Made by a program: the position numbers and the translations under genes
Notes under the pieces: model-generated
What the model saw: only the letters and a program-made list of their open reading frames with translations
The model's database searches: none
What the model was told of the DNA's origin: nothing
Shown here: positions 1,252-14,548 of the stretch, in pieces
Numbering within the stretch: position 1 is the first letter of the stretch
How the letters are laid out: each line of letters opens with the position of its first letter
Assembly: GCF_011074955.1 (NCBI RefSeq)
Contig: NZ_WUQJ01000031.1
Span: 1-64,000, forward strand
Length of the DNA stretch: 64,000 nucleotides
Direction of reading: 5' to 3'
DNA from: Marinobacter caseinilyticus
Lineage (GTDB): Bacteria > Pseudomonadota > Gammaproteobacteria > Pseudomonadales > Oleiphilaceae

Positions 1252-2424
1252 TCAGCCAGGTTTATTGGTGGGCAACAGACCTGTCAGTATACCCAGGCAG
1301 TGCAGCAGGAAGTAGTCGCCCCAGATCAGCTCATTCTCGGTGGCGACACCGCGCATTGGATCGAAGCAGCCTCGTGTTAGCATTGCGGGCCGGATAGCGC
1401 CATTGCCCCATGGCGCGACCACAACATAGTCACGACAAAGTGTTTTGACGGTGTTACGGGCTATTCGTTGATAATCCTGCGCGGCTTGGCGATCATCAAG
1501 AACAGTAGCCAATGTCAGCAGGGCATAGCAGGCGATAGAGGTGGCAGAGGTGTCCTTCGGAGTGTCGGCTTCTTGGGGCGCGTCGAAATCCCAGAAAGCC
1601 ACCCCGTCGTCAGGCACATTCTGGGTCCACCATCTACACACTTTTTCGGCATAGTCACGGATTTCACGATTCTCCGGATACAGTGCCGATAGATAAGCGT
1701 AGCTCATCATAGCCCAAGCCTGCGCACGGGCCCAGGTAGAGTTCGGGCCGTAGCCCTTGTGGGTATAGGTTTTGATCAACTTCCCGGTCTGGTTGTCAAA
1801 GCTAGCGGATTGGCATACTGAGCCATCCTCGCGCACACAAAAGTCAGCGTTAGTCAGGGCATGGCGGATTGCCACATCCCTGAATTTATCGTCACCAGTC
1901 TTCTCCGCAGCCCAGGCAAGCACTAGGCTGGCTGATAGGCTGTCGATGTTGGTTTCGTTCTCGCCGACCGTGTGGGCCTCTTCCGCCGATGTGCCCAAGG
2001 GCATCAGACCGATATTTGGGCGAAAAGTAGCGTACAGGCTACTGGCCGCAGCTAACGCCAGTGTCTCGGCTTTCCTGCTACCCGCAAGATCTGCCCCAAC
2101 AGAGCACCCAAAATAGAACAGGAAGCCCCGAAATACCGAATCGGAGTCAACCCTCGGCTCAAGGCGCTCTACCCACTCCTCGGCCGCTTGCCAGAGTGAT
2201 GAATCGCCAGAATAATGACCGCTCAACCAGAGTACACCGGGCCAGAAGCCCCCCGTCCAGAAACCATCTTCCGTGGTAGTCCACTCTCCGGTCGTCGTGT
2301 CGGCGTAGTGGGGAAACCCAGTTAATTGTTTTTTCAGAGTGAGACGCGCCCGCTCCACCAGACCTTCAATGGTTTGGTCAAACAAGCGCTTTTCGTCATT
2401 GCCGTATGGTGATTTGACGTTCAT
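1252..2424 (-). CDS. GH88-family unsaturated glucuronyl hydrolase-like protein
   Basis: 390 residues with no signal peptide, so probably cytoplasmic. Family members hydrate the enol ether of unsaturated uronic acid ends and release a keto sugar. Supporting motifs: DGFWTGGFWPGVLW (53-66), NETNIDSLSASL with Asp161 matching the general acid/base (Asp149 of Bacillus UGL, from memory), YTHKGYGPNSTWARAQAWAM (His222, Arg233, Trp237), VAFWDFDAPQ and LIWGDYFLL. Oddity: where the family has HHDIGF, with its second catalytic Asp (Asp88), this protein reads VFRGF near 97-101, so that Asp appears to be Phe98. It lies 36 bp downstream of the CoA-transferase gene and is probably co-transcribed with it. Fold assignment is good; the substrate is uncertain. 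Confidence 0.8.
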   Translation of the reverse strand: MNVKSPYGNDEKRLFDQTIEGLVERARLTLKKQLTGFPHYADTTTGEWTTTEDGFWTGGFWPGVLWLSGHYSGDSSLWQAAEEWVERLEPRVDSDSVFRGFLFYFGCSVGADLAGSRKAETLALAAASSLYATFRPNIGLMPLGTSAEEAHTVGENETNIDSLSASLVLAWAAEKTGDDKFRDVAIRHALTNADFCVREDGSVCQSASFDNQTGKLIKTYTHKGYGPNSTWARAQAWAMMSYAYLSALYPENREIRDYAEKVCRWWTQNVPDDGVAFWDFDAPQEADTPKDTSATSIACYALLTLATVLDDRQAAQDYQRIARNTVKTLCRDYVVVAPWGNGAIRPAMLTRGCFDPMRGVATENELIWGDYFLLHCLGILTGLLPTNKPG

Positions 2425-2460
2425 GATTTAGTGCCCCTCTTAATTGTGTTTGATTGCCAA

Positions 2461-3636
2461 TCAGGTAATAACTCCGCGTTCCTGGAAGTCTCTGATCTCG
2501 TTTTCGGAGTAGCCAAAGTCACTTAGAATCTCACTGGAAAATTCGCCCAGAGCGGCGGGTGGCCGTGGCATTTCTTTACCCTGGCTGGCCAGTTTTACCG
2601 GATTGCCAACCAGTTGGACTGATCCATGGCCGGGTATGTCCACCTCCCGCAAAATATCGTTCTGCAGGGTTTGCGGATGTTTCAAGGTGTCGTCCAGATC
2701 CATCACCGGGGCACACAGGATGTCGGTTTTGGATAATCGCTTTACACATTCATCGGTGGTATAGCGTTCCATCACCGGCCCGAATTTTTCCTGAACTATG
2801 TCGGCATGCTTACGTTGTAGAGTGGAGTTGGCGAGCAGTGGATCCGCGCTCATGTCGTCTTCGCCAAACGCCATGCACATGAGTTGCAGTGGGTTGTCCC
2901 GAAACAGAGTGAGAACAGTGATCCAGCCGTCCGAGGTCTTGAAGATCATGGCGTACTGAACCCAGTCGGTGCGGTAGTCGTAAAGTGCTCGACTGGAGGT
3001 TTCCAGCAGTTGCATGGCAATGGCGACATCAAACAGAGAAGTAGTTACGAGGTCACCTTTACCGCTGCGTTCCCGTCCCAAAAGTGCCGCCAGCACCCCC
3101 TGAGATAACGATGCCGCAGTGGCATAGTCGACTATAGGGGTGGCAGTAAGACGGGGACGGCCACCGGGCTCAACCCCATTCATGGCAAAGCCGCTGAGAG
3201 ACTGCGCCAGCATATCCTGGCCCGGCATACCTGATAACGGGCCCTTTGCGCCAAAGGCGTAACCAACCGCATACACCAGCCGAGGATTGCGCTTAGAGAC
3301 TTCGTCGTAACCAAAGCCGAGTCGCTCCATGGCACCGGGCCGAAAGTTGTGAATCAGCACGTCGGCGTTATCAATCAGCTTGCCAAGGACTTCTCGGCCT
3401 TCATCCTGCTTGAGGTCGAGGCACAGGGTCCTCTTATTACAACCAACCGCAGCGTAATAGCAGCTCATTTCCTCACGGGCGGTGCCGACCTCGTCGAGAT
3501 CCCGCATAATGTCGCCTCGGGGCGGTCGCTCAATCTTAATTACGTCGGCGCCGTAATCCCCAAGCATCTGCCCGGCAAGTGGCACCTGCATAACCATGCC
3601 AAGCTCTAGCACGGTGACCCCAGAAAGTGGTTTCAT
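2461..3636 (-). CDS. CaiB/BaiF family (class III) CoA-transferase
   Basis: 391 residues. Class III CoA-transferases move CoA between carboxylic acids through an aspartyl-CoA intermediate, as interlocked dimers. Visible signs: the opening LSGVTVLELG, GDYGADVIKIERP, the SCYYAAVGCNKRTLCLDL segment, VLIHNFRPGAMERLGFGY, and PGQDMLAQSLSG, where Asp141 is the likely catalytic residue. Length is normal for the family. It is read leftward and is followed after 36 bp by the GH88-like gene. It is divergent from the acyl-CoA ligase across a 128 bp gap with a candidate operator. The name CaiB would imply carnitine metabolism, for which there is no direct evidence. Confidence 0.88.
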   Translation of the reverse strand: MKPLSGVTVLELGMVMQVPLAGQMLGDYGADVIKIERPPRGDIMRDLDEVGTAREEMSCYYAAVGCNKRTLCLDLKQDEGREVLGKLIDNADVLIHNFRPGAMERLGFGYDEVSKRNPRLVYAVGYAFGAKGPLSGMPGQDMLAQSLSGFAMNGVEPGGRPRLTATPIVDYATAASLSQGVLAALLGRERSGKGDLVTTSLFDVAIAMQLLETSSRALYDYRTDWVQYAMIFKTSDGWITVLTLFRDNPLQLMCMAFGEDDMSADPLLANSTLQRKHADIVQEKFGPVMERYTTDECVKRLSKTDILCAPVMDLDDTLKHPQTLQNDILREVDIPGHGSVQLVGNPVKLASQGKEMPRPPAALGEFSSEILSDFGYSENEIRDFQERGVIT

Positions 3637-3764
3637 TGATTTCCTCCGTCATTCCATTTTACTTACTGACCGTATAGTATTTATTTAATATACACAAGCC
3701 AGTTTGACAAGTACTGATCGTTATTCTATTTCACAAGGCACGCCTTGATAGCCGGAGACGCTTT
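3637..3764. promoter_or_regulatory. Divergent promoter region with candidate TetR operator
   Basis: This 128 bp gap separates the divergent CoA-transferase and acyl-CoA ligase genes, so promoters for both must lie here or nearby. CCGTATAGTAT at 3670-3680 resembles TCGTATATAATA at 6167-6178, upstream of the tetR gene, and CCGGATAGTAT on the minus strand at 14541-14531, upstream of the acyl-CoA dehydrogenase. A shared site for the local TetR protein is inferred from this recurrence only. Confidence 0.45.
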
Positions 3765-5450
3765 ATGGTTCTAAACGAACAATTACCTGCATTCGCGATT
3801 CCCGATTCGCTCTCTGAGTGGACATTACCCAAAGTGGCTGCACGGCGCTTGGAGGCCTCACCCGATGCAGTTTTTGCCCGCGAGGTCTCGGGTAATCGAG
3901 AGACTTATGGCCAGTTTATGGCCCATGCGGAGGCGCTAGCAGCGCATTTCCTTCAGGTAGGTATTGAGCCCGGTGACCGTATCCTGATATTTGCTGCCAA
4001 CAGTATTGCCGCATTGCACGCATGGATGGCTGCAGCGCTAGTTGGCGCGGTCGATGTGTCGGCGAATACCGGCTATCGCGGTAACTCTTTGGCCCATGTC
4101 CTCAACCTGGCCAAACCCAGCCTGATTGTCAGCGATGCTGACTTAATGCCGTGTATTACCGAACTGACTTGGGACTTTTCCGGCGTCCGGCAGATTGTCG
4201 TTATCGACAACACGGAAACTGGTCCTAGCGAACTGGTCAAAGCATTTGAGGCAAAAGGGAATATCCGCGTGAGGCATCACCAAGAACTCATCGCCAAGCC
4301 AACACTATTGAAGCAGCCTTGGCCAGAGATTCAGCCCTCCGATGCAGCGTCTGTGGTGTTCACATCTGGCACCACTGGTCCCGCCAAGGGCGTGGTGATG
4401 CCCCATGGCCACGTCTGCCTGTTGGCTAACACCACCGCAGGGGAAACAGACATGACCGCGTCTGACGTGTTCTACAGCGCCCACCCTCTGTTTCACATTG
4501 CCGGTAAGTTCATGGGAGTACTCGCCATCTTTGCCGCCGGCGGAACACTGGTTCTTGACCGAAAGTTTGACGCTAAACGCTGGCTGGATCGCATCCGGGA
4601 AAGTGGAGCAACCATCAGTATTGCCCATGGACCGATGATAGAAATGATCCAGGCAGAGCCGCCACGGTCCGAAGATTCAGATAACGTTCTTACCCGTCTG
4701 ATGTGCTGCCCATTGCCTAAACGTGATGGTGATGCCTTTCTGGAGCGGTTTGGCGTCAAGGGTATCGAAATGTGGGGTATGAGTGAAGTTGGCTGCCCAT
4801 GTTGGACGTCACGGCAATTCTCTGCGGTTTCTGGCTCCTGCGGCAAAGTACTAACGGAATGGTATGACGTGGAAGTCGTCGATCCGGAAACAGACCGTCC
4901 GGTACCGGACGGCACCGCAGGTGAAATTGTGGTCAGGCCCAGGCACCCCTGGACTACCATGTTGTGCTACATGGGTATGCCGGAAGAAACCGTGAACGCA
5001 TGGCGAAACCTTTGGTTTCATACCGGAGATATCGCCGTCAGGGATAGCAACGGCAACATGTTCTACATCGATCGCAAAGGCGACCGTATCCGCCGCCGGG
5101 CCGAGAATATCTCCTCATTTGATATCGAAGCTGCAGTGGCTGACTTTCCTGGTGTGAAGGAATGCGTGGCGGTGGGTGTTCCGTCGAGCTATGAGAACGA
5201 CGACGATATTCTGGTTTATATCGTAACCATGGAGGACGCAGTAGTTGAACCACCGGCGCTGTTGAGTTTCCTGGCACGCGCACTGCCCCATTTCATGGTG
5301 CCACGCTATATAGAAATCATCGACGAACTACCGAGAACACCCACCAACAAGGTGAAGAAAAAGCAGCTATCACAGCGCGGCATTCAAACCAGCACCTGGG
5401 ACCGCAAAGCCGCCGGCGTCAGCCTAAAGGAGCTTATCGACGAGGGATAA
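3765..5450 (+). CDS. Acyl-CoA ligase of the AMP-binding family, CaiC-like
   Basis: 561 residues. It should activate a carboxylic acid with ATP and CoA through an acyl-adenylate. The P-loop-like A3 motif SGTTGPAKG is at 201-209. MWGMSEVG (A5), WFHTGDIAVRD (A7), YIDRKGDRIRRRAENIS (A8) and the C-terminal PRTPTNKVKKKQL with the adenylation lysine follow in order. The RAENISSFDIE hinge recalls crotonobetaine/carnitine-CoA ligases. It is the only rightward gene of the catabolic block, divergent from the CoA-transferase and convergent with tetR. The true acid substrate cannot be read from the sequence. Confidence 0.9.
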   Translation: MVLNEQLPAFAIPDSLSEWTLPKVAARRLEASPDAVFAREVSGNRETYGQFMAHAEALAAHFLQVGIEPGDRILIFAANSIAALHAWMAAALVGAVDVSANTGYRGNSLAHVLNLAKPSLIVSDADLMPCITELTWDFSGVRQIVVIDNTETGPSELVKAFEAKGNIRVRHHQELIAKPTLLKQPWPEIQPSDAASVVFTSGTTGPAKGVVMPHGHVCLLANTTAGETDMTASDVFYSAHPLFHIAGKFMGVLAIFAAGGTLVLDRKFDAKRWLDRIRESGATISIAHGPMIEMIQAEPPRSEDSDNVLTRLMCCPLPKRDGDAFLERFGVKGIEMWGMSEVGCPCWTSRQFSAVSGSCGKVLTEWYDVEVVDPETDRPVPDGTAGEIVVRPRHPWTTMLCYMGMPEETVNAWRNLWFHTGDIAVRDSNGNMFYIDRKGDRIRRRAENISSFDIEAAVADFPGVKECVAVGVPSSYENDDDILVYIVTMEDAVVEPPALLSFLARALPHFMVPRYIEIIDELPRTPTNKVKKKQLSQRGIQTSTWDRKAAGVSLKELIDEG

Positions 5451-5479
5451 ACAGCATTAGGTAAACCCAATGGGATAGC

Positions 5480-6103
5480 TTAGCCGATACCGTGCAACAA
5501 CATGCGCCGCACATTTTTGACCAGATCGGGGCCGCTAATTTCAGCGCCACGCAGGTGCCATTCCAGCATCATGCCATCGTGGACCGCCACGATCATGGAG
5601 GCGAACGAGCGTGCGTCAATGTCTGACGACATCGAACCAACGGCCTGGGCCTCGCTGACCACCGCCTCGACAGCGGCGTGTACATCTCCGTATAGCTCCC
5701 TGATTGCCGTGGCGATGACATTCTCCTGGCGAGCGAACTCGATGGCTATCTGGATCATGAAGAGCAGCTCGTTGGGCCGTTCCGCGCCGAAATCAGCACC
5801 CTTGTGGATATAGCGGATTATGCGGTCCACATGGCTGCCGACAGGATTTCTCAGAGTGGCCACCAGACCATCCACAAGATCCTCACGAAGAACTTCAAAC
5901 ATGTGCAGGATCAGCTTTTCCTTGCTGCCAAAGTAAAAATAAACCGAGCCTTTAGTGAGGCCGGCTTTTGATGAAATAGCCTCCAGGCTGGTGGCATGGT
6001 ATCCGCGTATCACAAACAATTCGAATGCAGCCTGTATCAACCGATTCATGCTGCGTTCACGAGATATTTCGTTCTTGTTAAGTTTCTTGCCCGTCGTAGT
6101 CAA
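5480..6103 (-). CDS. TetR/AcrR family transcriptional regulator
   Basis: 207 residues. The N-terminal helix-turn-helix covers roughly residues 18-64, with FVIRGYHATSLEAISSKAGL, TKGSVYFYFGSKEKLI and the usual TetR spacing; the C-terminal part is the ligand-binding and dimer domain. It lies 161 bp after the aldehyde dehydrogenase gene in the same direction and 29 bp from the end of the convergent acyl-CoA ligase. Its position inside the block and the recurring CGNATA-type motif upstream of itself, of the ligase/CoA-transferase pair and of the acyl-CoA dehydrogenase suggest it represses the block until an acyl-CoA or acid ligand binds. That regulatory role is inference. Confidence 0.9.
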   Translation of the reverse strand: MTTTGKKLNKNEISRERSMNRLIQAAFELFVIRGYHATSLEAISSKAGLTKGSVYFYFGSKEKLILHMFEVLREDLVDGLVATLRNPVGSHVDRIIRYIHKGADFGAERPNELLFMIQIAIEFARQENVIATAIRELYGDVHAAVEAVVSEAQAVGSMSSDIDARSFASMIVAVHDGMMLEWHLRGAEISGPDLVKNVRRMLLHGIG

Positions 6104-6264
6104 CTTTGTTTCCTAAATGAATTCAAACTCTCGAATAAATGGTTTCCAGCTTGCGCACCGGTTCATTCGTATATAATACAGTAAATGGAAAGTGCCGCTA
6201 AATCGTGCTTTTTATCTGCTCGGCACGCTCTAGCCGCCGGGCCCATCACCCTGGCTTGTCACAT
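6104..6264. promoter_or_regulatory. Upstream region of tetR with candidate operator
   Basis: This 161 bp gap precedes tetR. It contains TCGTATATAATA (6167-6178), which matches the motif in the 3637-3764 and 14474-14635 regions. The AT-rich TATATAATA could also supply promoter elements, consistent with autoregulation. No strong terminator for the aldehyde dehydrogenase gene was seen. Confidence 0.4.
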
Positions 6265-7842
6265 CTATGCTTCCCGCTCACCATCCAACAAGCGGTGCAG
6301 CCTATAAGGGTTTTCCTCCTTCAGAGCATGCGGGAGCAGGGCGTCGGGGAAATTCTGATAACATACAGGCCGGAGAAAGCGTCGAATAGCCGCGCTGCCT
6401 ACCGATGTGGTGCGGCTATCAGAGGTGGCCGGGAAAGGCCCCCCATGAACCATGGCATGGCAGACTTCTACACCTGTCGGCCAGCCATTGACCAATATCC
6501 GGCCAGCCTTCGTTTCCAATATTGGGAGTAGTGATTGCGCAGCCCCCATGTCGCCCTCATCCATGTGCAGAGTGGCTGTGAGCTGTCCTTCGAGGCTCTC
6601 GGCAACGCGCTGCATCTCCTCCAGTCCCTCACACTCGATAATCAAGGACGCGGCCCCAAAAACCTCCTGTTGCAATGTTTCATCTATGAGAAAGTCGCTG
6701 GCATGGGCGGCAAATAAACGGGGTTGGCAGGCGTTCGAGACTACGCCTTCCTCTCCACTCGCTAGACACTGGACGTCGGCATTGCCGGATAAACGCTCAA
6801 TACCCTGCGTATAGGCTGCATGAATATCCGATGTCAGCATGGTCTGAGCATCCGCTTGGGCAACGGCATCCGTGGCAGCTTGTTTGAAGGCTTCAAGGGC
6901 TTTGCCACGACAGCCAATGATCAGCCCCGGGTTGGTGCAGAATTGACCTGCACCCATACTAAGGGATACCGCGAATTCCATGGCAAGGTTACCAGTACGG
7001 GCCGCAACGGCTTCTGGCAGGATGAATACCGGGTTAATACTGCTCATTTCAGCGAACACCGGAATCGGTACGCTGCGCTGCTGCGCAATCGCTGTCAGGG
7101 CTAACCCGCCGCGCCGCGAGCCAGTGAAGCCAACCGCCTGGATGCAGGAGTTCGCCACCAGGGCCTGGCCGATCTCGTTGCCGACACCGAACAACAGTGA
7201 AAATACGCCATTCGGCATCTGACAGAGCTTGGCCGCTTGTTGGATTGCCCGGCCCACCAACTCCGATGTACCGGGGTGGCCTGGGTGGCCCTTGACCACC
7301 ACCGGGCAGCCTGCTGCCAACGCGGATGCAGTATCGCCGCCTGCGACCGAGAACGCTAGCGGGAAATTACTAGCCCCGAAAACCGCAACTGGCCCGACAG
7401 CGATGTGCCGCTGGCGCAGATCAAGCCGGGGCATCGGCTGGCGCTCAGGAAGCGCCGGGTCCACCCTGACGTCCAGCCACTCACCGTCACGCACTACCGA
7501 GGCAAACAACCGGAGCTGACCACAGGTACGACCGCGCTCACCTTCAATCCGGCCCTTCGGTAGTCCAGTTTCAGCCATCGCTCGCTCAATCAGTCCGGAG
7601 CCGAGAGCCTCGATTTCCGTGGCAATAGTTTCGAGAAAACTGGCTCGCGCTTCCAGAGAAGTTTCGCGATACTCACCAAAGGCCTCCAGGGCCAAACTGC
7701 AGGCTTGTTCGATATCCTTGCTACTGGCACCGGGGAATTCTGGCTCCAGGCGCTTTCCGGTGGCAGGGTCAACCGGTTCAAGGGCAGCCTGATCCCCCCG
7801 GTAGCTGGTCTGACCAATCAATTGGTGTCCTGATACAGTCAT
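6265..7842 (-). CDS. NADP-type aldehyde dehydrogenase, alpha-ketoglutarate semialdehyde dehydrogenase group
   Basis: 525 residues. It oxidises an aldehyde to its acid with NAD(P). Active-site residues are in place: GASNFP (Asn159), [14 protein letters not shown] (Lys184), FAEMSSINP (Glu265) and [10 protein letters not shown] (Cys302). [10 protein letters not shown] and the C-terminal [29 protein letters not shown] and RPVCYQNFP blocks are typical of 2,5-dioxovalerate dehydrogenases of sugar-acid and hydroxyproline catabolism. The Vibrio harveyi fatty aldehyde dehydrogenase belongs to the same group, so a fatty or branched aldehyde is an alternative substrate. It follows dctM by 58 bp and is probably the last enzyme gene of the leftward operon. 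Confidence 0.88.
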
Positions 7843-7900
7843 GATGATCTCCTTCGTATGTTCGGTGGTCGAATTATTTTCAAAGTTTAGCCTCGGCCAT

Positions 7901-9217
7901 TTAGCCCAGCAGTATTTCTGGCAACCAGGTCGCTAGCTCCGGGAATACCAGCACCACCGCCAAGGTAATGATCTGGAGGATGATGAACGGAATAACTCCG
8001 CTGTACATATGCCGTAGGGTGATCTCCGGCGGCGCCACCGCTCGAAGATAGAATATTGACGGTGCCATGGGTGGAGTCAGATAGCTGGTTTGCAATACCA
8101 CCAGGAAGGCAATACAGAACCAAATCGGGTCAAAGCCAAGGTTCAGCACCAGAGGCATGGCAATCGGGATGACGATCAGCACCACCGAAATCAAGTCAAG
8201 GACAAAGCCAGCTACAAATGTCAGAAGCAGAATCAATGCAATCACACCCCAGGCTGGGATACCCAGGTCGTTTAGCAGCGTCTGGATTGCCAACATCCCA
8301 CCTGATGCAAAGAACACCCCCGCAAACATACTGCCGCCCAGAACGATGAGCAGGATCATTGTAGTTATTAGCAGGGTTTTCATCAGGGCGTTACCAAACA
8401 AGGACCAGGTAAACGTGCGATAGATAGCCGATAAACCAACCGCTCCCAGCGCACCCCATGCAGCTGCCTCCGTGGGTGTAGCAACACCCATAAGGATGCT
8501 GCCGAGCACGGCGAAGATAAGTATTGAGGGCGGAATCAGCGCTACTGCAGTTATTCGCAGTTTCTGTCCAAGGCTGTACTTGGGGCCACCCTCCATAGTG
8601 CGGGGAGCCATGGCCGGTTTGGCAACAGCAACACCGACCACGTAAAGACCAAACAGCACAGCCATGATCAGGCCAGGCAACAGCAGACCGGCAAACAGCT
8701 CACCCACCGAAACATTGGCAACCGGACCCAGCACAATCACTGTGATGGAAGGCGGAATTACCGTGCCCAGCGACCCACTGGCGCACACGGTGCCGGAAAT
8801 CAGCCGTTTGTCGTAGGCGTGTTTCAGCATAACCGGGACGGTTAGCAATCCAATCACGGCCTCTGTGGCGCCTACCACTCCGCTGATGGCAGCAAAGATG
8901 GCACCCATGATAATGGTGCTAAGAGCCATGCCGCCGGGAAGTCGCCATGTCCAGATATGGATAGCCTCAAGCAACTTGGATGCAATACCGCTTTTCTCCA
9001 GGAAAGCTCCCATGAAGACAAACAGGGGCACTGCGGCCAGTACCGAGTTGCCCGCCACGCTGTCAATCTGGGAAATCAACTGGAATGACGCGGCATCGCC
9101 GAACTGAATAACACCAAAGATAAACGCTGTGCAGATCATCGACAACGCAATGGGAAAACCACCCAGAAGGAAAATCAGGAGAACCGGGAACATCCAGAAT
9201 CCGATGTATTCAGTCAT
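7901..9217 (-). CDS. dctM: TRAP transporter large permease subunit (DctM family)
   Basis: 438 residues and strongly hydrophobic, with about twelve membrane helices. DctM is the channel subunit of tripartite ATP-independent periplasmic transporters, which use the sodium or proton gradient and a periplasmic binding protein. The starts of both halves, [11 protein letters not shown] and [17 protein letters not shown], and [12 protein letters not shown] are typical. Its start overlaps the dctQ stop by 8 bp, so the two are translationally coupled. The substrate is set by the DctP protein encoded upstream in the same operon. Confidence 0.93.
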
Positions 9218-9740
9218 GCCACACCCCCGGCTCTTTGTCGCCCTTAATTAGAATGGCAATGGAGCGCACCAATTCGACCGCGGTTTGCGCGGTTAGTATA
9301 CCGAACCCGACAACCCAGACGGTTCGGAACGGCCAGATCACAGGATTCCAGCCTGAAGCTCCGGAGGTTTCCTGGTACTCGTAGGCCTCCAGCGCATACA
9401 AAAATAACGCGTCAACGATCCAGACCAGCGCCACTAACAAGATGGCCAGGCCGATCATGTCCATGGTCGCTTTGCCTCGCGGCGGCATAATGGCATAAAA
9501 GAGATCTACGTTGACGTGTTGGCGGACCTTCAGCGCGTACGCCATGCCCAATAGAAAAATTGAGCCCATGAACATGTAGCTCATTTCGTAGGCCCAGGCT
9601 GTTGGTGAGTTCAGGATATAGCGGCTAACGACCTCATAGGTCAGCGAGCCGATCAGCGGCACGATCAGCAATGCACCGATTAGCGCAGCGGCTTTCGAGA
9701 ACGCATCCACAGTTTTTCCGAGGAAGCTAAAAACTTTCAT
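9210..9740 (-). CDS. dctQ: TRAP transporter small permease subunit (DctQ family)
   Basis: 176 residues with four hydrophobic helices. DctQ is the small membrane subunit that pairs with DctM. The first helix (GALLIVPLIGSLTYEVVSRYI) is followed by SPTAWAYEMSYMFMGSIFLL and the ALKVRQHVNVDLFY segment, which are characteristic of the family. The gene lies between dctP and dctM, overlaps dctM by 8 bp, and is separated from dctP by 125 bp that contain a hairpin. Confidence 0.92.
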   Translation of the reverse strand: MKVFSFLGKTVDAFSKAAALIGALLIVPLIGSLTYEVVSRYILNSPTAWAYEMSYMFMGSIFLLGMAYALKVRQHVNVDLFYAIMPPRGKATMDMIGLAILLVALVWIVDALFLYALEAYEYQETSGASGWNPVIWPFRTVWVVGFGILTAQTAVELVRSIAILIKGDKEPGVWHD

Positions 9741-9822
9741 TATGCATGCCTTGTTGCTACCGATGACCCCGACCCGGGAGCAATTTGGCTTGGGCCGGGG
9801 GCATCGTGTCTCTTACAACGTA

Positions 9823-9849
9823 GGGCCTCGCACATAGAAATAGAGGCCC
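9823..9849 (-). promoter_or_regulatory. Intercistronic hairpin between dctP and dctQ
   Basis: GGGCCTC (9823-9829) pairs perfectly with GAGGCCC (9843-9849). There is no T-run after it in the leftward direction, so it is more likely an mRNA-stabilising or attenuating hairpin than a terminator. It could keep dctP transcript above dctQM levels, as the binding protein is needed in excess. Confidence 0.5.
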
Positions 9850-9865
9850 GGGTAACACCCTGTTG

Positions 9866-10924
9866 TTAATGCTTACCGCCGATGGGAAAGCGATACTCGG
9901 GCCAGACTGCCAATTGACCCTCGAAGTCCCTCAGGGAATTAAGCACCCTGGCAAACCACTTATTGTCCTCGGCCTGCTCGTCTTCCCACTTGTTCGTGGC
10001 TTCTTCAATTGTCGCCATGAAGTCCGGATCAAGGTGCACAATTTCATTGTCACCGTCGGTCATCTCCTTGAATGCGGAGAGATCAGCATTGGCACCGGCA
10101 CTCCAGCTTTCATACATGGAGAGCCTTGCCGCCGTGGCGATCGCCTGCTGGTCTTCCTCGGACAGGCCAGTCCAGACGTCCTTGTTGATTTCGCACTCAA
10201 GGACGCCGCCGGGCTGGTGCATGCCGGGTACGACCACATACTTAGCTATATCGGTGAAACCGGTCGGCTTGTTGATTTCCGGGCTGCCCCATTCAGTGGC
10301 GTCGATAACCCCTCGGTCAAGCGACGTATATACCTCGGCTCCAGGCATCACAATGGTGGAAGCACCAAGGTTTGACGCAATCTCGGCCCAGGCGCCGGAG
10401 GTGCGAAGCTTCAGACCCTTGAAGTCTTCGTGGGTCTGAACTTTCTTATTTGAGTGCAGAAAAATTTCCGTGCCAATAATCGCGCAGGGGAAAGACACCA
10501 CATTGAACTCTTCATCGCGGTACTCTTGCCAAAGTTCCAAGCCACCACCCTCGTAGAGCCACATCAGATAGCCTTCCGGGGTAGGGGAACCAGCATAACC
10601 AGCAAACAGCGCAGTGGTTCGGTCCCTGCCCCAGTCATAGGCCATCCAGTTGTGGCCAATCTCAACAACACCGCGGTTGACTGCCTCGGTGACTTTCAGC
10701 GGGTTGGAAAGCGTACCGCCCGGAAAGACATTGATTGTGATGCGGCCACCGGTGAGGTGCTCCACATTTTTGGCAAAGCCTTTAGCATCCCTTTCCAGCC
10801 AAGGACCACCACCCCAGGGTGTAGCCATTTTCCAAGTTACTTCCTCGGCCATGGCACCACCGGTAGTAAGGGTTAGGCTGGCGGCTATGACGGCCACCTT
10901 GATAGGGTTTGTGAGTTTCTTCAT
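9866..10924 (-). CDS. dctP: TRAP transporter periplasmic substrate-binding protein (DctP family)
   Basis: 352 residues. A signal peptide covers residues 1-26 (KVAVIAASLTLTTGGAMA, cleavage before EEVTWK), so the product is periplasmic. The DctP fold is shown by WLERDAKGFAKNVEHLTGGR, the PGGTLSNPLKVTEAVNRGVV segment, DFKGLKLRTSG (the region with the carboxylate-binding Arg) and EVYTSLDRGVIDATEWGSPE. The DATEW signature places it near binding proteins for 2-oxo acids and similar monocarboxylates (TakP type, from memory); this is a guess at substrate class. It follows the racemase gene by 104 bp in the same direction. Confidence 0.92.
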   Translation of the reverse strand: MKKLTNPIKVAVIAASLTLTTGGAMAEEVTWKMATPWGGGPWLERDAKGFAKNVEHLTGGRITINVFPGGTLSNPLKVTEAVNRGVVEIGHNWMAYDWGRDRTTALFAGYAGSPTPEGYLMWLYEGGGLELWQEYRDEEFNVVSFPCAIIGTEIFLHSNKKVQTHEDFKGLKLRTSGAWAEIASNLGASTIVMPGAEVYTSLDRGVIDATEWGSPEINKPTGFTDIAKYVVVPGMHQPGGVLECEINKDVWTGLSEEDQQAIATAARLSMYESWSAGANADLSAFKEMTDGDNEIVHLDPDFMATIEEATNKWEDEQAEDNKWFARVLNSLRDFEGQLAVWPEYRFPIGGKH

Positions 10925-11028
10925 TATTGAACTCCTCTCAGTCTTGCGTAATTGGCCGGTTCACCCTGACGGTGTTCCGTCCGGTTCTTGTTGTTATGAA
11001 CTGTTGTGATGGATTGGCTCTGCGGTTC

Positions 11029-12180
11029 TCAGGATTGACAGGATTTAACCGGTGGCCATACGAGCCCTGTCACATTCGAGGGCTCAGAAACGGCTTTGTT
11101 GATCTTCGCTTCTGACAGACCTAACTCTCGGAGGACCGTATGCGAACTGTCCTTGCCATCAGTAACACCCGGTATGGTCGGGGTTCGGGAATAGCGGGGA
11201 ATGGCCGGAGTAGCATAGGTGTCACTGCCAGGAAACCGCGCCTGTACATGCGGGTGTCGGAACACCTCATCTGGCGCCAACACCGGTGAAACGCAAGCAT
11301 CCCGGCCCTCGAAATGCGCCACCCAGGCGTCACGGGACCGGCTGGCGAATAACAGCTCGAACTGCTCAGTCATGGCGGGCCATGTATCCGGGTTCATGTG
11401 ATCTGGCATTGGCTGCTCAAAGTTCAACCCCCGCCACAGATTGGTGAAAAATGCGCTCTCCAAAGCCCCGACCGCCAGATACTTGCCGTCGTTGCAGACG
11501 TAGCAGCGGTAGAAAGGCGCTTCTCCGGTCAGCAGTCCTTTGCCGCGAGAAGGCAACACTGGCTTACCCCAGTCCGGATAGTGCATCGTCATCAGCGAAA
11601 GACAGCCATCTACCATGGCGACATCAAGGAACTGGCCCAGTCCCGAGCGCCCCCGCTCCAGCAGGGCTCCGAGGATAGAATAGGCGGCGTAAAGCCCGCC
11701 CGCGGCAAAGTCGGCAATAATATTCAACGGCAGTGCTGGTGGCCCATCGGCCGGGCCCATGGCGCCAAGGGCGCCGGAAAGACCAACATAGTTGATGTCG
11801 TGGCCTGCCTCTTGAGCGAGCGGACCATCCTGGCCGTAGCCGGTCACCGAGCAGTACACCAGTTTCGGGTTGTCTTGCTTAAGGGCTTCATAGCCGAGGC
11901 CTAGGCGGTGCATAACACCAGGACGAAAGCCTTCCATCAAGACATCCGCATCGGCAGCCAACAGGCGGAATGCATCCAGACCTTCTTCGCTTTTCAGGTC
12001 AAGGTTCACAAAACGCTTTCCGCGTCGGTAGCAATCAATCGGCAAGCCGGAGCGGCCGCCGCCAACAACAATAACCTCTGCCCCCATATCCGCCAGCAAC
12101 ATTGAGCCGTACGGACCTGGTGCAAGACGAGTCAAGTCCAGCACACGGGTGCCTTTCAAGATTGAATTCTGGCCAGTCAT
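11029..12180 (-). CDS. Alpha-methylacyl-CoA racemase-like protein (CaiB/BaiF superfamily)
   Basis: 383 residues. The start GTRVLDLTRLAPGPYGSMLL is typical of alpha-methylacyl-CoA racemases, which epimerise 2-methyl-branched acyl-CoAs so that beta-oxidation can proceed. Residues matching the catalytic set of the mycobacterial enzyme are present: His127 in GHDINYVGLSG, Asp157 in NIIADFAAGGLY and Glu241 in AVGALE. This separates it from the CoA-transferase at 2461-3636, which has the transferase Asp instead. It sits 24 bp after the alcohol dehydrogenase gene in the leftward operon. Its presence suggests a methyl-branched intermediate in the pathway. Confidence 0.87.
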   Translation of the reverse strand: MTGQNSILKGTRVLDLTRLAPGPYGSMLLADMGAEVIVVGGGRSGLPIDCYRRGKRFVNLDLKSEEGLDAFRLLAADADVLMEGFRPGVMHRLGLGYEALKQDNPKLVYCSVTGYGQDGPLAQEAGHDINYVGLSGALGAMGPADGPPALPLNIIADFAAGGLYAAYSILGALLERGRSGLGQFLDVAMVDGCLSLMTMHYPDWGKPVLPSRGKGLLTGEAPFYRCYVCNDGKYLAVGALESAFFTNLWRGLNFEQPMPDHMNPDTWPAMTEQFELLFASRSRDAWVAHFEGRDACVSPVLAPDEVFRHPHVQARFPGSDTYATPAIPRYSRTPTIPGVTDGKDSSHTVLRELGLSEAKINKAVSEPSNVTGLVWPPVKSCQS

Positions 12181-12204
12181 ATCAAACTCCTCATGGTCAC
12201 AACC

Positions 12205-13338
12205 TCAGCCCATGGTTTCTTTCAGCATGGCGAGGAAGTCCTCAGCCGACGCTGGACGCGGATTGGTGGCGGTGGAGTGGTCTTCTTCGGAAAACTGGGC
12301 CATATCCTCGAGCTCCTCGTCCGGCACACCCATTTCACGAAGATTCTTCGGCATGCCAAGTTCGGCATTCAGACGCTCGAATTCTGCTGGCAGATCGGCA
12401 TCGGCCGCTAGGCCCATGGCGGCCTTGAGGTGGTCAAATTTGTCACCGCAATGACTCTGGTTAAAACGCAGTACCGGGGGCAACAACACCGCGTTCAGCG
12501 TGCCATGGTGGAGCTTTAGCTCCTTCAGGCCACCAAGGGCGTGGGACATGGAGTGAACTCCCCCCAAGCCCTTTTGGAATGCCAGCGCGCCTTCAAGGGC
12601 CGCAATCATCATTTCACTGCGTGCTTCCATATCGGTTCCGTCGTTGACAGCACGAATCAGATACTTCGAAGCTCGGCGCAGACCGTCCAGTGCAATGGCA
12701 TCGGCCGGCGGGTTGATCTTGGGGCTCAGGTAAGTTTCAACGCAATGGGCAATAGCATCCATCCCGGTTGCGGCGGTTAGGTTGGCCGGAAGTGAGCGTG
12801 TCAGTTCCGGGTCGCAAATGGCCAAGTCTGGGATCAAGTATGGGGAAAGAAATCCTAGCTTGCGGCCGTCCCGCAGCGTTATCAGGGATGCCCGGCCTAC
12901 TTCGCTGCCGGTACCTGCGGTGGTGGGTACTGCAACCAGGGGGACGGTTGGGCCGATTTTGGCAACGCCACCATCGATAGCCGCATATTGGCGCAGTGGC
13001 GGCTTATGGGTTGCGAGCAAAGCTACGGCCTTGGCAAGATCGATACTGGAGCCGCCTCCGATGGCAACAATACTATCGCAATTGTTAGAACGATAAGCTT
13101 TCAGGGCCTCTTCCACCGCCACTTCAGTTGGATTGGCAGGTGTGCCATCGTAAATGGCAACATTGTCCGGAAGCTTGGCAGTTGCCTTCGCCTTATCAAG
13201 CAGGCCGGTTGATGACAAGCCGGCATCGGTGATGATCAGCGGCTTGCTTACTTTCAGGTTTGCTAGCTCATCATTCAGTGAAGCCATTGCGCCTGTGCCT
13301 AAGCGGATATTGGTCAGGTAGTTAATCTGGGCAATCAT
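12205..13338 (-). CDS. Iron-containing (group III) alcohol dehydrogenase
   Basis: 377 residues. These enzymes interconvert alcohols and aldehydes or hydroxy and oxo acids using NAD(P) and a divalent metal. GGGSSIDLAKAVAL (94-107) is the nucleotide-binding region and VPTTAGTGSE (137-146) the family signature. Metal ligands are Asp194 and His198 in GMDAIAHCVE, a His in GVHSMSHALGG (262 or 266) and His278 in LHHGTLN. The gene lies 10 bp after the acyl-CoA dehydrogenase gene, so the two are co-transcribed. With the aldehyde dehydrogenase further down it could form an alcohol-to-acid oxidation step. Confidence 0.92.
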   Translation of the reverse strand: MIAQINYLTNIRLGTGAMASLNDELANLKVSKPLIITDAGLSSTGLLDKAKATAKLPDNVAIYDGTPANPTEVAVEEALKAYRSNNCDSIVAIGGGSSIDLAKAVALLATHKPPLRQYAAIDGGVAKIGPTVPLVAVPTTAGTGSEVGRASLITLRDGRKLGFLSPYLIPDLAICDPELTRSLPANLTAATGMDAIAHCVETYLSPKINPPADAIALDGLRRASKYLIRAVNDGTDMEARSEMMIAALEGALAFQKGLGGVHSMSHALGGLKELKLHHGTLNAVLLPPVLRFNQSHCGDKFDHLKAAMGLAADADLPAEFERLNAELGMPKNLREMGVPDEELEDMAQFSEEDHSTATNPRPASAEDFLAMLKETMG

Positions 13339-13348
13339 GGTTTTCGCC

Positions 13349-14473
13349 TTAATCTGAAAGCATGGCTTTAGCGACGATCAATTTCTGGATCTCGCTGGTT
13401 CCTTCGTATATCTGAGTAATTTTCGCATCACGCATCATGCGCTCGACGGGGAAATCGGTCAGATAACCTGCACCGCCATGGAGCTGTACGGACTCGGTGG
13501 CCACTTTCATGGCAACATTGCTGCAAAATAGCTTGGCCATGGAGGCTAGGGTGCGGGCCTCAGGCTCTTTGTTTTCAACCGCTTCACAGGAGCGATAAAG
13601 TAGTTGGCGGGAGGCTTCGATTTCGGTTGCCAGGTCGCCAATGGTGCCGCGGATCATTTGAAAGCGTGCCACTTGCTGGCCAAAAACCTCCCGCTCCTTA
13701 ACGTACTTGATGGCGGCATCAAATGCCCCTTGGGCAATACCGAGCGCCTGAGCCCCAATTAACGGCCGGGTATAGGCCAGTGAATCAGTGATGTACTGGC
13801 GGCCTTCTTTCGAGTCACCGAGGAGCCGGTAATCGTCAACCCGGCACTCTTCAAAAATTACATCGGCAGTGGGGCTGCCCCGCACACCCATCTTCGATTC
13901 CAGCTTGCCGAAGGAGAGACCGGGGTCAGATTTATGCACCGCAAACACACCAAAGCTGTTTTCACCGGTACATGCCAGGACCGAGTACCAGTCGGAGCGG
14001 CTGGCATTGGTGATGTAGCGCTTCTGGCCGTTGAGCACCCACTGGCCATCCTTGTACTGGGCGCGACTGCGAGCACCCCAGACGTCAGAGCCGCCGTGAA
14101 TTTCAGTCAGACAGATGGAGGCCACGATGTTTCCATTAATGGCCGGTTTCATCACCTCTTCGACCAACTGCGGCGAACCAAACGAGGCTATTGGGCCGAG
14201 CCCGGCCCAGATCACCATCAGCGTAAGCGACGAGGTGGCACAGACACGGGCGATTTCCTCCAAACAGATGCATTGGGCCAGCACGTCCCCAGACTGGCCA
14301 CCGATGCTTTCATCAAAAGGCAGCGCAATCAGTTGTAATTCCTTGAATGCGGCAAGTGCCTCTTCGGGAAATCGCTTCTTTTCATCAACGTCCGCAGCAT
14401 GAGGCTGAATTTTGGTTTCAGCCAAACGCCTCACCGCCTTGCGAAACTCTTCGTAATCCTGTCGTTCAAGCAT
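13349..14473 (-). CDS. Acyl-CoA dehydrogenase
   Basis: 374 residues, the normal length for short and medium-chain members. FAD-dependent desaturation of an acyl-CoA, with electrons passed to ETF. Recognised by CLTEIHGGSDVWG and WVLNGQKRYITNASRSDWY in the middle domain, MKVATESVQLHGGAGYLTD near the C-terminus and QIYEGTSEIQ, where Glu357 is the catalytic base in the position used by short/medium-chain enzymes. It is the first gene of the leftward operon, with a candidate promoter and operator just upstream. Chain length and branching of the substrate cannot be told, but the neighbouring racemase suggests a branched acyl-CoA. Confidence 0.93.
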   Translation of the reverse strand: MLERQDYEEFRKAVRRLAETKIQPHAADVDEKKRFPEEALAAFKELQLIALPFDESIGGQSGDVLAQCICLEEIARVCATSSLTLMVIWAGLGPIASFGSPQLVEEVMKPAINGNIVASICLTEIHGGSDVWGARSRAQYKDGQWVLNGQKRYITNASRSDWYSVLACTGENSFGVFAVHKSDPGLSFGKLESKMGVRGSPTADVIFEECRVDDYRLLGDSKEGRQYITDSLAYTRPLIGAQALGIAQGAFDAAIKYVKEREVFGQQVARFQMIRGTIGDLATEIEASRQLLYRSCEAVENKEPEARTLASMAKLFCSNVAMKVATESVQLHGGAGYLTDFPVERMMRDAKITQIYEGTSEIQKLIVAKAMLSD

Positions 14474-14521: not shown

Positions 14522-14548
14522 ATAAAACACATACTATCCGGATGGTCA
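14522..14548 (-). promoter_or_regulatory. Candidate promoter/operator of the catabolic operon
   Basis: Read leftward, TTGACC (14548-14543) is followed after 17 bases by TTTATT (14525-14520), a plausible sigma-70 pair with a weak -10. CCGGATAGTAT (14541-14531) lies between the two boxes and matches sites at 3670-3680 and 6167-6178; ACTATCCGGATGGT around it is a near-palindrome. An operator between -35 and -10 would fit repression. Just beyond, at 14569-14581, a GGGGT/ACCCC hairpin could end glmS transcription. Confidence 0.45.

Follow-up and report, generated by a model that had tools for sequence, protein, structure and literature searches.

A conserved gene block of Marinobacter caseinilyticus with a GH88-like protein, and its possible role in the breakdown of cyclic alpha-alkoxy acids

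Introduction

The first 64,000 nucleotides of contig NZ_WUQJ01000031.1 of Marinobacter caseinilyticus (assembly GCF_011074955.1, genome 4.3 Mb), the window analysed here, carry at positions 1252-14473 a block of eleven genes, in which a relative of the unsaturated glucuronyl hydrolases (glycoside hydrolase family 88, GH88) stands among enzymes acting on coenzyme A (CoA) thioesters. What would a glycoside hydrolase relative do in such company, and which compound would the block consume? An earlier note on this DNA had read the block as one catabolic unit combining uptake, CoA activation, racemisation and desaturation, which the gene content supports. As described below, the block is best read as a catabolic module that has been conserved and spread horizontally; it also occurs on plasmids of unrelated soil bacteria with other transporters and with some parts exchanged, and the probable task of its GH88-like member is to open the ring of a small oxygen-heterocyclic acid.

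Occurrence of the module in other bacteria

A tblastn search of plasmids with the GH88-like protein returned 215 records with a relative (188 at 1e-20). The records examined from the close groups were the single ones of Aminobacter and Azospirillum, two of five from Agrobacterium, three of ten from Rhodococcus and two of five from Cupriavidus; these nine, together with five Burkholderiaceae genomes, constitute the 14 clusters compared here, with the Marinobacter and Bradyrhizobium copies kept apart. All 14 clusters combine a GH88-like gene with genes for an acyl-CoA dehydrogenase, a CoA-transferase and an alcohol dehydrogenase, the last of these being iron-containing (Fe-ADH) in 11, and a CoA ligase and an aldehyde dehydrogenase usually belong to the module too. 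Since most of the block families are found together in Alpha-, Beta- and Gammaproteobacteria as well as Actinomycetes, their grouping is not a matter of chance. The module is rare, as judged from the few matches of the GH88-like query at 1e-50 (a single one among 369 class genomes, namely the query genome, and one of 337 genomes of the class of genome G523). Furthermore, the Cupriavidus GH88-like protein found a match in five of the 249 genomes of a Burkholderiaceae sample, while DctP, the solute-binding protein of the block's tripartite ATP-independent periplasmic (TRAP) transporter, was matched at 1e-90 in two genomes of the 398 from the phylum, including that of the query.

Among the nearest counterparts is that of Aminobacter MDW-2, where the genes for acyl-CoA dehydrogenase, Fe-ADH, racemase (CaiB2), TetR-type regulator, ligase, class III CoA-transferase (CaiB1) and GH88-like protein match the Marinobacter block in order and relative strands (identities of 65, 60, 57, 40, 55, 54 and 50%, respectively). 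An ATP-binding cassette importer of the branched-chain-amino-acid type and a succinate-semialdehyde-type dehydrogenase replace the TRAP and aldehyde dehydrogenase genes. The host was considered as a clue to the substrate and was of no help, the strain being known, from the available text of PMC8235418, for methomyl degradation. Agrobacterium pusense resembles Aminobacter, with the addition of an electron transfer flavoprotein (ETF) and ETF-quinone oxidoreductase, and its module adjoins the attM lactone genes; in one strain, an IS66 element separates the TetR gene from the ligase stretch. In Rhodococcus, the cluster comprises CaiB2, acyl-CoA dehydrogenase, CaiB1, a zinc alcohol dehydrogenase, the GH88-like protein and an NADP-type aldehyde dehydrogenase, and R. 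jostii RHA1 is similar (zinc alcohol dehydrogenase 88% identical). Conservation of the neighbourhood, which the earlier note had named as a check, thus extends to most genes and stops at the TRAP genes, in whose place other transporters stand.

A second module type, found in Cupriavidus and Azospirillum, holds the GH88-like protein (42-44% identical to that of the block), a MaoC-type hydratase, a family I CoA-transferase, Fe-ADH (56-57%), acyl-CoA dehydrogenase (37%) and a ligase (26-31%). Neither the racemase nor CaiB1 has a match in any of the eight stretches of this type. Near the Azospirillum cluster, an AraD1-like open reading frame (ORF) was recognised by eye. A haloarchaeal plasmid (L143, 3343-10839) bears a GH88-family gene along with an AMP ligase, an enoyl-CoA hydratase, a short-chain dehydrogenase/reductase (SDR), deoC and a ribokinase.

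The GH88-like protein and its altered site

The GH88-like protein is clearly related to solved unsaturated glucuronyl hydrolases (1vd5), whose residue numbers are used here for an alignment of 20 sequences. Catalytic Asp149 is kept in all 20 (D161 in the block protein), and the positions of Trp42, Phe46 and Asp149 are retained in the 13 core sequences. At two further sites the block protein has changed, from Asp88 to F98 and from His193 to Q205. Phe and Gln are constant at these sites in the 13 core sequences and three Bradyrhizobium relatives, while Tyr and Gln stand there in relative G1049. The HHD motif and His193 are retained in two comparators whose neighbours include heparinase II/III genes, and the haloarchaeal relative, with CoA-enzyme neighbours, has Phe at the Asp88 site and keeps His193. 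Both sites are therefore altered in 17 of the 20 sequences, the exceptions being the two comparators and, for His193 only, the haloarchaeal sequence. The core group is further marked by the motifs [VA]F[RK]GF and QSA and by a new invariant THKG stretch. A single-sequence structure prediction (mean predicted local distance difference test score 42.6) was discarded.

According to the available text of PMC4528949, GH88 and GH105 enzymes are thought to work by adding water to a C=C bond, the Asp149 equivalent serving as the acid; this residue is proposed to protonate the double bond and to activate a water molecule held by the His193 equivalent. The same text names four residues as functionally important in the solved enzyme, Asp88 and His193 among them, and places Asn at the Asp88 site in two GH105-type enzymes, RhiN and YesR. 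As hydration is the family chemistry, the hydratase that the earlier note had listed as missing may most naturally be sought in the GH88-like protein, and hydration by the altered site is plausible.

Proposed pathway

The reactions, their order and the substrate are all inferred from gene content. The substrate would be a cyclic alpha-alkoxy carboxylic acid, in the simplest case tetrahydro-2-furoate, the acid of tetrahydrofurfuryl alcohol. The TRAP transporter would import the acid, which would be activated by the ligase and also by CoA transfer through CaiB1. CaiB2 would racemise the chiral carbon beside the carboxyl group, making both enantiomers usable, and the acyl-CoA dehydrogenase would produce 4,5-dihydro-2-furoyl-CoA, an enol ether with the carboxyl on the ether carbon, whereupon CaiB1 would hand the CoA on to a new substrate molecule. 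Hydration of the enol ether by the GH88-like protein would yield a hemiketal that opens to 5-hydroxy-2-oxopentanoate, which Fe-ADH would convert to 2,5-dioxopentanoate and the aldehyde dehydrogenase to 2-oxoglutarate. Hydration of dihydrofuroate, opening of the hemiketal and oxidation to 2-oxoglutarate are general chemistry. The enzyme would thus add water to the group that GH88 enzymes meet in their natural substrate, a 4,5-unsaturated uronic acid, but the source of this group would be a CoA-dependent desaturation instead of a polysaccharide lyase.

This route would account for several features of the module. The racemase of one module type would be explained by the chirality of an alpha-alkoxy carbon. 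5-Hydroxy-2-oxopentanoate would be a keto homologue of 4-hydroxybutyrate and would suit an Fe-ADH which scores above the curated 4-hydroxybutyrate dehydrogenase cut-off. The earlier note had placed alcohol oxidation before activation; in view of this score, and of the best model of the Agrobacterium aldehyde dehydrogenase (see below), the Fe-ADH and the aldehyde dehydrogenase fit the last steps better. With 2-oxoglutarate as product, no thiolase would be needed, so that its absence, which had been counted as a gap, would cease to be one. The ten best solved relatives of DctP include chains named lactate-binding and ketoacid-binding protein. The AraD1-family or DHDPS (dihydrodipicolinate synthase)-family genes near the GH88-like gene in all three Bradyrhizobium loci examined, and the AraD1-like ORF of Azospirillum, count in favour of the route as well, since some members of these families act on 2-oxo-3-deoxy acids.

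The aldehyde dehydrogenase slot has been filled differently in different hosts. Agrobacterium uses an enzyme of another subfamily, which the 2-oxoglutarate-semialdehyde models fit better than the block enzyme; its top two models, alpha-ketoglutaric semialdehyde (551 bits, cut-off 770) and 2,5-dioxovalerate dehydrogenase (512, cut-off 750), are both below cut-off. A solved relative of the block enzyme, 3v4c (E 3e-145), is designated 'Aldehyde dehydrogenase (NADP+)'. Among 64 scanned of 106 same-strand neighbours, which belong to the 80 top-ranking relatives of the block enzyme out of at least 590, there were eight genes of the DHDPS family, four Ldh_2, four DAO, two MR_MLE_C and 16 GntR/FCD regulators. 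The DHDPS-family neighbours are in line with a 2-oxoglutarate-semialdehyde dehydrogenase function, without proving it.

A further link is provided by C. pinatubonensis HN-2, which carries the cluster and which we take to be the same species as C. necator JMP134. The latter strain is reported to degrade tetrahydrofurfuryl alcohol in the available text of PMC2842291. In the literature, of which subscription papers were poorly covered, named genes for the later steps of tetrahydrofuroate breakdown were not found, nor was a link between GH88 and CoA metabolism.

We consider the full route from tetrahydro-2-furoate to be a little short of an even chance, while a route that counts other alpha-alkoxy acids as well is rather likely. 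A wider proposal, put forward tentatively and with somewhat less confidence than evenly balanced, is that a GH88-fold subfamily serves as an ether-opening hydratase after CoA-dependent desaturation or dehydration, enabling cyclic alpha-alkoxy acids to be opened without oxygenases or polysaccharide lyases. Each ring acid would then have its own kind of module around this subfamily, in Gamma-, Beta- and Alphaproteobacteria, in Actinomycetes and perhaps in haloarchaea.

Contrary evidence and alternative explanations

Several observations weigh against the tetrahydro-2-furoate route. Two of the four functionally important GH88 residues are altered (Asp88 to Phe, His193 to Gln), and hydration is consequently not assured. 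The block aldehyde dehydrogenase passes no curated NCBIfam model; its best score is 94 of 615 bits for aminobutyraldehyde dehydrogenase, and the 2-oxoglutarate-semialdehyde models give 91 of 750 (2,5-dioxovalerate dehydrogenase) and 88 of 770 bits. The Aminobacter enzyme is nearer to succinate-semialdehyde dehydrogenase (481 bits, cut-off 646), the 14 solved structures that match the Agrobacterium enzyme at 1e-90 do not include a 2-oxoglutarate-semialdehyde enzyme, and a full-length relative of the block enzyme is lacking from the stretch in three of the five Burkholderiaceae genomes (a piece occurs in one, the whole in one). The modules themselves vary: the two annotated Rhodococcus stretches contain no ligase gene, the three examined Bradyrhizobium stretches contain neither acyl-CoA dehydrogenase nor Fe-ADH, and the gain of a MaoC-type hydratase and the loss of racemase and CaiB1 in the Cupriavidus/Azospirillum type are both left unexplained by the route. 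JMP134 also uses cyclohexanecarboxylate, so that the abilities of the strain do not by themselves assign the cluster. No uncovered ORF of more than 472 aa was seen in five 20-kb Burkholderiaceae stretches, hence nothing of the size expected for a quinohemoprotein alcohol dehydrogenase. Finally, the proposed substrate is not known to us from any natural source in the sea.

The alternative that survives best retains the chemistry and changes the substrate to another alpha-alkoxy acid, namely an acid with a six-membered ring, a hydroxylated ring acid of sugar or nucleoside origin, or a lactyl ether with an open chain, which would yield pyruvate together with an alcohol. The Bradyrhizobium group (15 plasmid records with a GH88-like protein of 38-40% identity, of which L135, L136 and L137 were examined) speaks for it, as here the GH88-like gene is accompanied by a CoA-transferase, by an enoyl-CoA hydratase in place of the acyl-CoA dehydrogenase, and by AraD1 (two of the three) or a DHDPS-family gene (one of the three). 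Some AraD1-family or DHDPS-family enzymes handle 2-oxo-3-deoxy acids, and such partners are as expected if the GH88-like protein yields these acids; the Bradyrhizobium modules perhaps apply the same chemistry to sugar-derived ring acids. The distant haloarchaeal relative, with its ligase, hydratase, ribokinase and deoC, likewise suggests that related modules may handle oxygenated rings. The Marinobacter block, however, is devoid of a kinase, an aldolase or an AraD1-type gene, and its Fe-ADH of the 4-hydroxybutyrate type fits a small unsubstituted chain, which makes this alternative unlikely as an account of the block.

In the earlier note, an alcohol or hydroxy acid with a 2-methyl branch is first oxidised and activated, then epimerised and finally desaturated; on such a reading, the GH88-like protein would be a bystander or would remove a sugar. 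A racemase with the full catalytic set of alpha-methylacyl-CoA racemase (MCR) and the acyl-CoA dehydrogenase agree with this proposal. Nevertheless, the constant elements of the 14 clusters are the GH88-like protein and the alcohol dehydrogenase, whereas racemase and CaiB1 are absent from the eight clusters of the Cupriavidus/Azospirillum type, which keep the GH88-like gene and Fe-ADH; moreover, the block contains no thiolase or lyase, and the residue changes of the GH88-like protein speak against a uronate sugar substrate. A 2-methyl centre is therefore improbable.

Use of 4-hydroxybutyrate or gamma-butyrolactone, oxidised by Fe-ADH and the aldehyde dehydrogenase to succinate with the CoA genes as a side branch, is suggested by the Fe-ADH score, by the succinate-semialdehyde dehydrogenase model that best fits the Aminobacter enzyme, and by the Agrobacterium module beside attM/blcR. 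On the other hand, 4-hydroxybutyrate offers no obvious task for the racemase, the acyl-CoA dehydrogenase and the GH88-like protein, and the attM group already possesses an Fe-ADH and a succinate-semialdehyde dehydrogenase, beside which a second set would be redundant; on the latter ground a pure 4-hydroxybutyrate block was rejected, and this use in any form appears quite improbable. The adjacency was seen in two Agrobacterium records (L127, 1-3358; L144, 1849-6204), with blcR in one strain.

A saprophytic uronate or glycoside route with an ordinary unsaturated glucuronyl hydrolase, for which the clear relation to solved enzymes of this name may be adduced, is very improbable and was rejected on the residue changes, as Asp88 and His193 are both changed in 17 of the 20 sequences while the HHD motif and His193 persist in the two comparators beside heparinase II/III genes, and as profile searches of the block genes detected no polysaccharide lyase or uronate gene.

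Organisation of the block

Gene families were assigned by Pfam and NCBIfam profile searches of the ORF translations of the window (Table 1). All eleven genes that the earlier note had named are present as open frames with Pfam matches. Its two opposed transcription units need a slight correction, there being three units: a minus-strand unit running from acyl-CoA dehydrogenase down to TetR (14473 to 5480), a minus-strand pair of CoA-transferase and GH88-like genes (3636 to 1252), and the ligase gene, the sole plus-strand gene of the block, which diverges from the CoA-transferase gene and converges with that of TetR. The TRAP transporter is present with all three of its subunits. At the contig edge, frame 40-744 represents the terminal part of an ETF alpha subunit gene; as the contig begins inside this gene, the block is bounded on its far side by the end of the assembled sequence.

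Table 1. Genes and candidate operator sites of the block, in window positions
Feature	Position	Strand	Supporting match
GH88-like protein, proposed enol-ether hydratase	1252..2424	-	PF07470, 36.9 bits vs cut-off 26.6 (Pfam); 1vd5 E 7e-51
CaiB1, class III CoA-transferase	2461..3636	-	PF02515, 313 bits
Candidate operator between CaiB1 and ligase genes	3670..3685	not assigned	16-base match to 14526-14541
AMP-forming acyl-CoA ligase, CaiC-like	3765..5450	+	PF00501, PF13193; best NCBIfam NF004808, 419 bits vs cut-off 722
TetR-type regulator, TTG start	5480..6103	-	PF00440 (searched as 5483-6088)
Aldehyde dehydrogenase, proposed 2-oxoglutarate-semialdehyde dehydrogenase	6265..7842	-	PF00171; 3v4c E 3e-145
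DctM, TRAP large permease	7901..9217	-	PF06808, TIGR00786 above cut-off
DctQ, TRAP small permease	9210..9740	-	PF04290
DctP, TRAP solute-binding protein	9866..10924	-	PF03480, NF037995 above cut-off
CaiB2, alpha-methylacyl-CoA racemase family	11029..12180	-	2g04/1x74 E 1e-81/2e-78; His127, Asp157, Glu241
Fe-ADH, 4-hydroxybutyrate dehydrogenase family	12205..13338	-	NF058672, 548.5 bits vs cut-off 500
Acyl-CoA dehydrogenase	13349..14473	-	PF00441, PF02770, PF02771; best NCBIfam acryloyl-CoA reductase, 318 bits vs 640
Candidate operator upstream of acyl-CoA dehydrogenase gene	14526..14541	not assigned	same 16-base match

The full His/Asp/Glu set that had been ascribed to CaiB2 is indeed there, and its residues correspond to His126, Asp156 and Glu241 of mycobacterial MCR. 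In CaiB1, Asp170 aligns with what we take to be the catalytic Asp of formyl-CoA:oxalate CoA-transferase. The two candidate operators share their 16 bases on opposite strands with three mismatches, the core being kept in two further Marinobacter genomes (G060, G096). A common TetR operator at both sites is only suggestive, since some shuffled sequences equal the match at 16 and 18 bases (4 of 60 in each case; 0 of 60 at 20 bases).

Distribution within Marinobacter

The GH88-like gene occurs in five of 124 genomes of the genus, and the same five carry DctP orthologues (92-100% identity), while three more have only paralogues of 51-59%. The order of the block is identical in G060, G096 and G036; in G027, the block is divided over two contigs and TetR was not seen there. 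In the G036 copy (L017), the genes for acyl-CoA dehydrogenase, CaiB2, DctP, aldehyde dehydrogenase, CaiB1 and GH88-like protein each span more than one frame, which may reflect either sequencing error or decay.

In M. caseinilyticus, glmS adjoins the acyl-CoA dehydrogenase gene. It does so in none of the four other Marinobacter copies, and no block gene lies in the 9-kb stretch that follows glmS downstream in G060 and in G096; the block has thus changed its address. The gene itself is present in all eight other Marinobacter genomes tested. A conserved insertion site was looked for, but no empty site emerged: a homologue of the etfA end was absent within 1.5 kb in the eight genomes and within about 9 kb downstream of glmS in the four that were extended.

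Block-bearing genomes also hold a second TRAP system (L116, 5613-8614, in G060; also L119 in G027 and L120 in G036), with DctP 58% and DctM 67% identical. Its neighbours in G060, as judged by eye on the translations, are TauD-like dioxygenases together with an SDR and a cupin, and it possibly belongs to a sister pathway.

Implications and comparison with known systems

If the proposed route is true, genes would be assigned to the later steps in the breakdown of tetrahydrofurfuryl-type compounds (biomass-derived solvents), and a glycoside hydrolase family would act in small-molecule ether cleavage. The labels 'glycoside hydrolase family 88' and 'glucuronyl hydrolase' would then be wrong for some of the proteins that bear them.

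Degradation of tetrahydrofurfuryl alcohol by Ralstonia eutropha Bo and Cupriavidus JMP134 is among the nearest known systems, in that Cupriavidus has the module of GH88-like protein, Fe-ADH and acyl-CoA dehydrogenase. It differs in its first enzyme, a pyrroloquinoline quinone-dependent quinohemoprotein alcohol dehydrogenase (reportedly described by Zarnt et al. in 1997 and 2001), which has no counterpart in the Marinobacter block. The carnitine (cai) cluster shares the ligase, the class III CoA-transferase and the acyl-CoA dehydrogenase, and probably the recycling of CoA by the transferase, whereas the Marinobacter block is without an enoyl-CoA hydratase (CaiD) and has a racemase, Fe-ADH, aldehyde dehydrogenase, GH88-like protein and TRAP transporter in addition. 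CaiB2 agrees with MCR in family and catalytic residues, but its context suggests an alkoxy instead of a methyl-branched carbon. Similarly, the GH88-like protein shares with the GH88 unsaturated glucuronyl hydrolase and GH105 YteR the sequence family GH88, the positions of Trp42, Phe46 and Asp149 and, probably, the hydration of a carboxyl-bearing enol ether, while its subfamily is set apart by Phe and Gln at the Asp88 and His193 sites (13 of 13 core sequences), by the THKG stretch, and by CoA enzymes as partners in place of polysaccharide lyases.

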